DNA from: Thioclava atlantica
GTDB taxonomy: Bacteria; Pseudomonadota; Alphaproteobacteria; Rhodobacterales; Rhodobacteraceae
Reading direction: 5' to 3'
Length of the DNA: 64,000 nucleotides
Assembly: GCF_000737065.1 (NCBI RefSeq)
Contig: NZ_AQRC01000004.1
Location: 124,001 to 188,000, forward strand
Both the position numbers and the translations under genes were made by a program. Numbering within the stretch: the stretch's first letter is position 1; the number at the start of each line of letters is the position of its first letter. The notes below the pieces were generated by a model that saw only the letters and a program-made list of their open reading frames with translations, ran no database searches and was not told the origin of the DNA. This document shows, piece by piece, positions 41,808-45,250 of the stretch.

Positions 41808-42290
41808 TCAGCCACCGCGAAGCGAGAGGTTCAGCTCCCGCAGCGGGGCCAATTCTTTCTCGGACATCAGCGCGACGCCGTTCGTCATTTCATGCAGCTC
41901 TTCGATGAGCGCGCGCGCCTCTTCGGTTTCGGCCCGTCCGATCTCCTTGGAAGGATGCGCGAAAAAGCCGAAGGACCGCGATTCCTTGCCGATGGAGATC
42001 ACCTTTCCGTATCGCAGCCCGAACTCTGCGGCTTGGCCGAGCACGTTGCTTTCGTCTTGATCCGCGAGGTCAGACCAGTCGCAAATTCCGGTATGCGCGA
42101 TGGCCCACTGGACCGCCGGATCGACGAAAACAAGGCCGTTTTCGCTATAGTAATCGACCCATGACTGTGGATAGGTCTGATAAAGCAGTGTAGGGTTGGC
42201 AAAGCGTATGTGCAGTCCCAAAGCGAATTTCCAGTCCGAGATCTCACTCAGACGTTGCAAGCCCTGGCGCATTGTGTGCACGTTGATCAT
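41808..42290 (-). CDS. LuxR-type autoinducer-binding domain protein lacking DNA-binding domain
   Basis: A 160-residue protein that matches only the N-terminal autoinducer-binding domain of LuxR. The conserved pocket residues appear in order: W and Y in QSWVDYYSE, D in VDPAV, W in CDWSDL, and G in LRYGKVI. It ends LRELNLSLRGG, right where a full LuxR would continue into the helix-turn-helix, and no HTH remnant was found in the sequence after the stop. The start MINVHTMRQG is chosen from the AAGGG 8 bases upstream; longer alternatives lack this. Divergent from a full LuxR. Confidence 0.8.
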   Translation of the reverse strand: MINVHTMRQGLQRLSEISDWKFALGLHIRFANPTLLYQTYPQSWVDYYSENGLVFVDPAVQWAIAHTGICDWSDLADQDESNVLGQAAEFGLRYGKVISIGKESRSFGFFAHPSKEIGRAETEEARALIEELHEMTNGVALMSEKELAPLRELNLSLRGG

Positions 42291-42400
42291 GCAAAAACCC
42301 TTGAATTCATTTGAAGATGACTCTTTGAAGAAGTCCCGTAGAAAAAGACCTGATCTCGTCGAGCCGCTCATCCGTAAAGACTACGGCCCACTCGGTCACA

Positions 42401-43021
42401 ATGGAAGCGCCGAACGGTATGAACCTTAGTGATTTTCAAAGTCTTTTCGCCGAACTCGCACCTGCAGGCTGTTACGTCGCCTTGCGGGTCGGCTTTTACG
42501 CGCCGGAAGCCGAGTTGAACCTGTTCCCGGCCGAGTGGATCGACCACTATACTCTTTCCGGACATGCGCTGGCCGATCCCCTCTTGCGGTGGTGTCAGGA
42601 AAATGCGGGCTACGCACGCTGGCGGGACATCGACGGATTGGCCGCCACCCGCGTCATGCGCGACTATCAGTCTTTTGGCTATACATTCGGGAGCGTCGTG
42701 TCGATCCGTGGGACGCTTTCGATGCCCAAGCGGAGCCTGGGGATCTTCGCGCGCTCTGACCGGGACCTGCTGGATTCCGAGATGGAGGAAATCCAGAAGA
42801 GCCTCTCGCGCATCCATGCCTACGAACCCAAGGCGCTGACGGATGCGCAACTGGAAGCACTTCAACTCTATTCCAGGGGCTATCTCCAGAAAGAGATTGC
42901 CTACAAATTGCAGATCTCCGTCGGTGCGGTCAAAGCGCGGCTCCGGGGCGGTGCGGACCGCCTCGAGGCCAGGACGCTGAGGGAAGCCGCCCACATTGCC
43001 GCAAGCCGAGGGCTTCTCTGA
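42401..43021 (+). CDS. LuxR-family transcriptional regulator 1 (autoinducer binding)
   Basis: A 206-residue LuxR regulator. N-terminal autoinducer-binding domain: W and Y in AEWIDHYT, D in LADPLL, W in YARWRDI. C-terminal HTH (about 145-206): LTDAQLEALQLYSRGYLQKEIAYKLQ retains the conserved E, L and G of LuxR, but the recognition part GAVKARLRGGADRLEART departs from the consensus (R where a histidine is common). It could therefore read another DNA site. The ATG at 42419 is an alternative start. Divergent from the receptor-only gene. Confidence 0.85.
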   Translation: MEAPNGMNLSDFQSLFAELAPAGCYVALRVGFYAPEAELNLFPAEWIDHYTLSGHALADPLLRWCQENAGYARWRDIDGLAATRVMRDYQSFGYTFGSVVSIRGTLSMPKRSLGIFARSDRDLLDSEMEEIQKSLSRIHAYEPKALTDAQLEALQLYSRGYLQKEIAYKLQISVGAVKARLRGGADRLEARTLREAAHIAASRGLL

Positions 43022-43147: not shown

Positions 43148-43849
43148 ATGGATATCATCGACCTGGGCTCTGTGCCGTCGAGTTCGGAGAACTACGTTTG
43201 CTACATTGAACAAATGTGCGACACTCTGGGCCTCGATTTCGGCTCCTACGCGTCTGTAAACCCCGTGACGGGGGCAGTCGTCGGGTACGCCAACTACCCG
43301 GACCCGTGGAAAACCCACTACATGACTCGCAATTTGCATCGGGTGGATCCCACCCTGCAAAAAGCAAGCTTGAGCATCGCACCAGTGGATTGGCAGCGGT
43401 TCGAAAGGGACCAGAAATTCAAGTCGGTATTCTTTGCGGCGGAGGATTTCGGGATCACGGCTCAGGGTTTGACGGTCCCAATTCGCGGCCCCTATGGCGA
43501 TCGTGGCTTGCTCTCGGTGACGCGGAACTGCTCGCAAGAGGAATGGGAAAAGCTCAAGCGCCATATTATGGGCAATCTTCAGACCGCGGCTGTCCATCTG
43601 CACGACTCGATTATGCGTTCGACCGGTCTCATTGGCGCCTTGGGATATCCGGCACTCTCGTCCCGGGAAAAAGAGATTTTGCAGTGGACCGCGGCGGGAA
43701 AACTTCAGCAGGAAATCGGCGATATATTGTCGATTTCGTATCGCACTGTCGAAATCCATTTGCGATCAGCACGATACAAACTTGGCGCAGTCACCACCGT
43801 CCAAGCGGTAGGCCGAGCCATCGGAATGGGGCTGATCCACCCGAGTTGA
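43148..43849 (+). CDS. LuxR-family transcriptional regulator 2 (autoinducer binding)
   Basis: A 233-residue LuxR regulator with full architecture. The binding domain has W in DPWKTHYM, Y, D in VDPTLQKA and W in VDWQRFERD. The C-terminal HTH is canonical: LSSREKEILQWTAAGKLQQEIGDIL, then ISYRTVEIHLRSARYKLGA and VQAVGRAIGMGLI. Likely the main AHL receptor of this locus, given its position before luxI. It is 126 bases after regulator 1 and on the same strand. Confidence 0.9.
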   Translation: MDIIDLGSVPSSSENYVCYIEQMCDTLGLDFGSYASVNPVTGAVVGYANYPDPWKTHYMTRNLHRVDPTLQKASLSIAPVDWQRFERDQKFKSVFFAAEDFGITAQGLTVPIRGPYGDRGLLSVTRNCSQEEWEKLKRHIMGNLQTAAVHLHDSIMRSTGLIGALGYPALSSREKEILQWTAAGKLQQEIGDILSISYRTVEIHLRSARYKLGAVTTVQAVGRAIGMGLIHPS

Positions 43850-44315: not shown

Positions 44316-44957
44316 ATGATCATCATCGTCGACTCTCTCAATGCTCACGAATATCCGGACCTTCTCAAACAGATGCACGAGCTCAGAGCGCGGGTCTTCA
44401 GCGGAAGGCTCGGCTGGGACGTCAAGGTTGTCGATGGCATGGAACGCGATGCTTTCGACGAGTTGGATCCTGCCCACGTCATCAGCATCGATGACGAAGG
44501 CCGCGTTGTCGGCTGCATGAGGCTTCTGCAGACCACCGGTCCTCACATGCTCTCCGACGTCTTTTCCTGCCTTCTCGATGGGGAGCCCCCCATTCGCAGC
44601 CCGCTGGTCTGGGAAGCTACCCGCTTCTGCGTCGACACCAATGTGCTCGTCCGTGGGGCGGCGCGGAACTCGATCTCCTACGTCACGAGCGAAGTGATGA
44701 TCGGCGCGTTTGAATACGGCATGGCCGCGGGCATCACGGATGCTGTCGCCGTCATCGACCCTGTCATGAACCGCGTGATGAAACGCTCGGGCAACGCGCC
44801 TTATGGCTACCTCGGTTCGCCCCATCCCATGGGCAAGGTCACGGCGCTCGCCGCTCTCATGGATTGTTCGGAAAAACGCATCGCTCAGATCCGCGAGTTT
44901 TCGGGCATCCATCACGACGTCTTCAGCGTTACCGCTCTGGAGGAAACCAGGCCATGA
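44316..44957 (+). CDS. luxI: Acyl-homoserine-lactone synthase LuxI
   Basis: A 213-residue autoinducer synthase. Invariant residues are present in order: R and F in RARVFSGRLGW (with W), E and D in GMERDAFDELD, R in GCMRLL, F in DVFSC, E and R in WEATRFCVD. It makes an N-acyl-homoserine lactone from SAM and acyl-ACP; chain length cannot be read. Located after two luxR genes, followed by the coupled small ORF. The upstream ORF extension to 44187 lacks homology. Confidence 0.95.
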   Translation: MIIIVDSLNAHEYPDLLKQMHELRARVFSGRLGWDVKVVDGMERDAFDELDPAHVISIDDEGRVVGCMRLLQTTGPHMLSDVFSCLLDGEPPIRSPLVWEATRFCVDTNVLVRGAARNSISYVTSEVMIGAFEYGMAAGITDAVAVIDPVMNRVMKRSGNAPYGYLGSPHPMGKVTALAALMDCSEKRIAQIREFSGIHHDVFSVTALEETRP

Positions 44958-45250
44958 CAGTCTACTCCAAATTCCCGAAACCCTATGCAGCGGCGGAGCG
45001 TATAGACGCCTCCAGCGAGCTCGCGTCACATCAATGGATCGTTCGTATCCTCGCTGAGATCGTCGAATATTCCGAGGCTCATCGCCTGGATGCAGTGGCG
45101 GATCCCCTGATCGCCGCTATCGAGGAAATCGCGCCCGCGCTGGCGAGCGGCAAGGTCGCGGATGAACCTGCAGTGTCCGATGGCGGAAGCCGCGGCGCAC
45201 GGGAGCCTGCAGAGGTTATCCGTTTCCCCAAAAAGAACTTGCGCGGATGA
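44954..45250 (+). CDS. Small protein translationally coupled to luxI
   Basis: A 98-residue protein beginning MTVYSKFPKPY; its ATG overlaps the luxI stop (ATGA). It is predicted mainly helical in the first 68 residues (HQWIVRILAEIVEYSEAHRLD), with a low-complexity basic tail ending IRFPKKNLRG. No membrane segment or known domain. The coupling makes a role in quorum-sensing output or synthase control likely, but the function is unknown. Confidence 0.75.
   Translation: MTVYSKFPKPYAAAERIDASSELASHQWIVRILAEIVEYSEAHRLDAVADPLIAAIEEIAPALASGKVADEPAVSDGGSRGAREPAEVIRFPKKNLRG

Follow-up and report, generated by a model that had tools for sequence, protein, structure and literature searches.

We found that the minus-strand gene at positions 41808-42290 of the window (the 64,000-nucleotide stretch of Thioclava atlantica DNA analysed here) is most likely a conserved and functional orthologue of cerN, encoding a LuxR-type protein without the DNA-binding HTH that probably acts on the divergently encoded full-length LuxR protein CerM in an AHL-dependent manner. 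Proteins of this kind are already known from Cereibacter sphaeroides, whose CerN is HTH-less and encoded together with cerM upstream of cerR-cerI (passages of Hernandez-Valle et al. 2024, PMC11655674), and the Thioclava gene most likely represents a further orthologue. The order of the window locus, with cerN divergent from cerM-cerR-cerI, matches that of Cereibacter and comprises the following features:

41808 to 42290, minus strand: cerN orthologue, HTH-less LuxR-type AHL-binding protein of 160 aa (PF03472 alone; pocket WYDPWG; 51% identity to Cereibacter-type CerN; AF2 fold)
42291 to 42400, no strand: 110-bp intergenic region from which cerN and cerM diverge (from coordinates)
42401 to 43021, plus strand: cerM orthologue, full-length LuxR, likely partner (PF03472 39.9 bits; GerE 23.2 bits, just below the 23.5 cut-off)
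43148 to 43849, plus strand: cerR orthologue, full-length LuxR (PF03472 102.9 bits, GerE 54.5 bits; 69% identity to Cereibacter-type CerR)
44316 to 44957, plus strand: cerI orthologue, AHL synthase (PF00765 237.5 bits; 75% identity to Cereibacter-type CerI over 202 aa)
44954 to 45250, plus strand: small ORF (98 aa), its ATG overlapping the stop codon of cerI (tblastn matches after cerI in relatives)

The cerN reading frame runs from an ATG start to a TGA stop. Another in-frame ATG further upstream, at 42371, would give an alternative product of 187 aa, and we favour the start at 42290 because homologue alignments begin there and an AAGGG motif lies 7 nt upstream of it. Pfam assigns the product the Autoind_bind domain (PF03472, 58.9 bits against a cut-off of 23) and no GerE, in agreement with the initial annotation's reading of a receptor lacking its HTH; with GerE missing, the protein falls outside the LuxR solos, in which autoinducer-binding and HTH domains are both present. 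The six pocket residues W44, Y48, D57, P58, W72 and G95 are all kept, also as first annotated, and presumably occupy TraR columns W57, Y61, D70, P71, W85 and G113 (by TraR numbering and the common WYDPWG pattern). The AF2 model (pLDDT 93.6) has LuxR-type ligand-binding domains as its top solved-structure matches, the best being 5l09 from Yersinia enterocolitica (Z 15.4 over 141 residues), with the C-terminal tail barely included in these matches. The two LuxR neighbours do begin at 42401 and 43148, as previously placed; the cerM start is possibly at 42419 (AF2 residues 1-5 have pLDDT <50), and the AF2 model of CerM contains four HTH helices.

Next, we examined the missing HTH. Behind the window cerN stop, tblastn with three HTH queries returned nothing at E<=1 and searching all three forward frames by profile gave a top score of just -1.4 bits, bearing out the earlier statement that no remnant lies past the stop. 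The companion statement, that the protein stops where the HTH should begin, is right about the absent domain but appears to misplace the boundary, as window CerN seems to end within the former HTH rather than ahead of it: in the AF2 model, the last predicted helix (residues 144-158) occupies the place of the first GerE helix in full-length relatives, and in alignments GerE helix 1 of the full-length GtaR-like proteins falls on the CerN tail. In a shuffle test of the 39 out of 53 CerN rows of our tree set that have a tail (the remaining 14 stop earlier), 33 rows were matched by <=50 of 1000 shuffles, with the window tail weaker at 95 of 1000.

Our analysis of relatives revealed HTH-less CerN proteins in many Rhodobacteraceae genera, with lengths in two zones, ~154-166 aa (including the window protein) or ~139-143 aa. 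One is shorter, a 128-aa Thioclava pacifica protein (L067) encoded close to a contig end and retained in the set, and a few (e.g., L135 and L128) are the ends of much longer open frames, for which the start was assumed. Among the 17 genes inspected, the stop codon was TGA, TAG or TAA and the sequence after it had no recognisable conservation, so that relatives keep the HTH-less form, as had been proposed as a check, but not the same stop. A profile search of 57 non-identical stretches behind such stops detected a clear HTH only in L131 (116 bits); the runner-up, L057, scored 7.2 bits, compared with a maximum of 7.1 in 1710 shuffled stretches. A weak CerR-type tblastn match behind cerN in L061 (E=0.006) scored 3.3 bits by profile, which 19 out of 1000 shuffles of the same stretch also attained, and among 57 stretches is at chance level. 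The L131 case (L131:3932-4585) is a gtaR interrupted by an in-frame stop, behind which the HTH can still be read, a genuine truncation and thus a contrast case; in L096, undetermined bases lie within the ORF, and the HTH end is present in frame. The 78 "short" ORFs recovered from relative loci are redundant and include L131 fragments.

We quote selection as pN/pS, since synonymous sites were mostly saturated. The medians were 0.28 (cerN) and 0.29 (cerM) from 7 sequences each, and 0.15 for both cerR and cerI from 6 each; cerN is under purifying selection. Window cerN therefore shows neither sign by which we would call a pseudogene, an HTH remnant past the stop or relaxed selection. Had a nonsense mutation recently deprived a decaying luxR of its HTH, the case that the initial annotation had named as its own refutation, close relatives would have an intact HTH at the cerN locus, and none was found among the relatives fetched. 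The tail that still aligns with GerE helix 1 suggests that an HTH was probably once present, but with relatives equally HTH-less, differing stop codons, nothing comparable to L131 behind the window stop, and continued selection, we give recent decay almost no credence.

The assignment to cerN relies on sequence and gene order together. Compared with a Cereibacter sphaeroides-type locus (L141), the window proteins share 51% (CerN, over 158 aa), 45% (CerM), 69% (CerR) and 75% (CerI) identity; L141 CerM shares F57 with C. sphaeroides CerM, and the Pfam scores of L141 and C. johrii are within 3 bits of those in Table 2 of PMC11655674. In a tree of ligand-binding domains, which was built on few columns, window CerN falls inside a 20-row clade holding all 14 type-A CerN (SH-aLRT 95), and the CerM clade has 49 rows (SH-aLRT 100). 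The tree set comprised the window, L059-L133 and 18 other loci, with identical rows included once and L131 and L096 left out. GtaR-like proteins of the GtaR/GtaI (LuxR1/LuxI1) system are full-length and related to CerN as well as to CerM; unlike CerN, GtaR retains its HTH, and the LuxI adjoining it belongs to a separate group (the name GtaR was assigned from similarity and gene order, without a named reference).

To follow the pair across genomes, we combined several scans. A single-protein scan of genome contigs with the window protein gave no relatives. An alignment scan of named genomes yielded 75 loci, Rhodobacterales or just Alphaproteobacteria by title, which by hand count consisted of 41 with CerN and CerM, 32 of full-length gtaR type and 2 that were dropped (L096 and L131). 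The 41 CerN-CerM loci divided, again by hand count, into 12 of type A (with cerR and cerI), 24 of type B (with another luxI but lacking cerR) and 5 in which the pair stands by itself, with type-A loci occurring under names such as Thioclava, Loktanella, Sulfitobacter, Pseudorhodobacter, Cereibacter, Luteovulum and Albidovulum, among others. Of the tree set's 53 CerN rows, 50 have CerM in the same fetched locus, and 14 have CerR there.

In a family sample of 150 genomes, one per genus, we identified 34 divergent cerN-cerM pairs in 31 genomes. In every one of the 30 pairs fetched for this sample, an HTH-less CerN lies next to a CerM that has its HTH; the remaining four pairs are those of G000 (two), G018 and G021:C33 (one each). 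Within the fetched stretch, luxI is nearby in 30 of the 34 and cerR in four, with no cerR in the other 30. A 35th case (L164:1703-3884) has cerM-luxI-cerN in a co-directional arrangement, the trio staying together despite the altered order. In a quick tree (29, 14 and 18 rows), the type-B LuxI form a group separate from CerI and GtaI, with supports of 61, 100 and 96, respectively. A class sample of 192 genomes returned the genome of the window as the sole match at E<=1e-12, a result that is uninformative beyond the family, as >=2 other family members in it were also without a match. These counts raise CerN/CerM from a finding in one species to a gene pair conserved in 31 of 150 sampled genera, and suggest that many Rhodobacteraceae read AHL through a receptor unable to contact DNA. 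Some CerM-like genes have no CerN beside them (e.g., L166 and L167), and solo cerN copies with no cerM nearby (L044, L048, L051 and L054) occur in four Thioclava genomes in which a pair is present as well.

Among the papers listed by our literature searches, judged by title and start of abstract, only PMC11655674 and its correction deal with the CerN-CerM pair or with a truncated Thioclava LuxR; in the passages of that article, synteny is reported for gtaR alone, in a comparison limited to Ruegeria KLH11, D. shibae and R. capsulatus. The terms CerN and CerM also appear, once each, in a biofilm paper on P. aeruginosa, and passages of PMC3824088 make no mention of an HTH-less LuxR. The survey PMC4338825 remarks, in the passages drawn on here, that proteins with the autoinducer-binding domain only are often encoded near full-length LuxR genes and may sequester ligand or bind LuxR, a general remark that defines no family, orientation or partner such as CerN has.

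For C. sphaeroides, passages of PMC11655674 report that CerN was pulled down with CerM solely in the presence of AHL, that CerN plus AHL weakens CerM binding to DNA (by EMSA and an E. coli reporter), that CerN lifts an indirect repression of ctrA by CerM, and that genetic epistasis supports this CerN-CerM model. The same passages state that AHL by itself somewhat weakened the CerM-DNA complex in vitro and that a cerI cerN double mutant swims slightly, so that the C. sphaeroides model is itself not clean. Orthology, locus order, the HTH-less form, purifying selection, an intact pocket and fold, and linkage to cerM are established for the window gene. The window locus thus resembles CerN/CerM in having an HTH-less AHL-binding protein with a WYDPWG pocket beside a full-length LuxR, adjoining cerR-cerI in the same order; it differs from C. 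sphaeroides in that window CerM has W57 (F there) and the published CerM site is missing from the window, and the interaction is predicted by analogy.

On this analogy we consider it probable that the Thioclava CerN is an AHL-binding protein that joins the CerM encoded divergently at 42401 and removes it from DNA. Without AHL, CerM alone would occupy its DNA; as AHL, presumably from the linked CerI, accumulates, it would be bound by CerN, and AHL-loaded CerN would then pair with CerM and strip it from DNA, switching the CerM targets. For the window species, we infer this mechanism, the AHL bound and the genes controlled by carrying them over from C. sphaeroides. Given the orthology to Cereibacter CerN in sequence and gene order, the best-supported mechanism is a LuxR with only a ligand-binding domain that works through a full-length partner, which upholds the earlier comparison with TrlR in part; a TrlR-type recent copy of its target does not fit. 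In Agrobacterium, TrlR is 88% identical to TraR, whose DNA binding requires AHL (passages of PMC11655674), and window CerN resembles TrlR in being a LuxR-type ligand-binding domain that lacks an HTH and is expected to need a full-length partner for its action. Unlike TrlR, it belongs to an old family and shares just 25% identity with CerM, a value at which heterodimer formation is unreadable from sequence.

The partner is another point on which we depart from the initial annotation, which proposed inactive heterodimers or AHL sequestration and named the LuxRs at 42401 and 43148 for a two-hybrid check. The target is most likely the divergent 42401 product, CerM, rather than the luxI-linked LuxR at 43148 (CerR), and the predicted output is AHL-dependent relief from a regulator that binds DNA without AHL, rather than damping of an AHL-dependent activator. 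We think it unlikely that CerN lowers AHL production as a dominant negative of CerR in the manner of TrlR: TrlR offers a precedent (passages of PMC11655674 and PMC13043044) and cerN is linked to cerR-cerI in type-A loci (the above-mentioned 14 of 53 CerN rows), but 30 of the 34 divergent pairs in the family sample lack cerR within the fetched stretch, and four Thioclava genomes (G006, G010, G013 and G015, each also with an extra solo cerN) have a type-A cerN-cerM pair without an adjacent cerR and without a CerI-type synthase. In C. sphaeroides, moreover, the CerN phenotype depends on CerM, and AHL synthesis requires neither protein (passages of PMC11655674). An absent effect on luxI, which had been named as a refutation of the first reading, would therefore be compatible with CerN relieving CerM.

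Somewhat more doubtful still is that CerN is chiefly a CerM stabiliser or positive co-regulator, with antagonism not its sole role. CerM protein is markedly lower without CerN in C. sphaeroides, and in the same source (passages of PMC11655674) CerN plus AHL lowers CerM DNA binding by EMSA and lacZ reporter, which argues against this reading. Long co-inheritance of the two genes would fit it, with pair distances correlating at 0.87 over 49 pairs (maximum of 1000 permutations 0.14), a value in which co-evolution is not separable from shared inheritance and which species history alone could yield. That CerN buffers the signal as a free AHL sink without any partner is very improbable in our view: the pocket kept in 53 of 53 tree rows and the solo copies in Thioclava would suit a sink, but those genomes also have a pair, cerM lies in the same locus for nearly all tree rows, and the cerN-cerM linkage outlasts the rearrangement in L164.

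We also compared the pockets of both proteins, using the list of AHL-pocket residues in passages of PMC11655674. All six residues are kept in 53/53 CerN and 39/49 CerM of the tree set (changed in 0 and 10), and in 29/31 CerN and 26/31 CerM of a second set (changed in 2 and 5), which repeats 7 CerN and 6 CerM of the first; as the rows are kin, these events are not independent. By these residue counts the CerN pocket is more strictly conserved than that of CerM. The W57F change in CerM, which the authors of PMC11655674 suggest (in the passages used) may matter for regulation, occurs only in four Cereibacter-type loci (C. johrii, C. ovatus, L. azotoformans and L141), and is unable to account for the whole CerM family as CerM of C. 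changlensis and of the window retain W57. With W57 in its CerM, the window species may have both CerN and CerM binding AHL. The stricter CerN pocket would fit a more tentative idea, to which we give somewhat less than even chances, that CerN/CerM is a split quorum-sensing receptor and a common circuit design of Rhodobacteraceae, with CerN as signal sensor and CerM as the DNA-binding subunit active without AHL. If so, the type-B cassette, with cerN divergent from cerM-luxI' and no cerR, would be a complete circuit without a conventional AHL-activated LuxR alongside. Natural variants bearing on which partner senses include the W57 of window CerM, cassettes without cerR and pairs without a CerI-type synthase.

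Finally, we searched the window for regulatory elements and its genome for related genes. The intergenic region between cerN and cerM is poorly conserved outside the start regions, and scans for inverted repeats, promoters and terminators, and an intergenic footprint gave no convincing operator or promoter. The published CerM site TNT(N5)AAGACA(N2)T has 0 matches in the window at <=1 mismatch, with 2.4 expected by chance; such sites are degenerate, and targets may be elsewhere. The small ORF after cerI gives nothing above cut-off in Pfam or NCBIfam; of the 17 type-A loci searched with tblastn, 9 contain a match, though some are duplicates from a single organism. The genome of the window encodes eight proteins with an autoinducer-binding domain, including a second short one at C3:53543-53959, and three LuxI; it carries one type-A cassette, one gtaR-gtaI-like pair and one type-B cassette (L039, G000:C3:51000-57000, at 1089-2963) that contains cerN', cerM' and a distinct luxI and lacks cerR.
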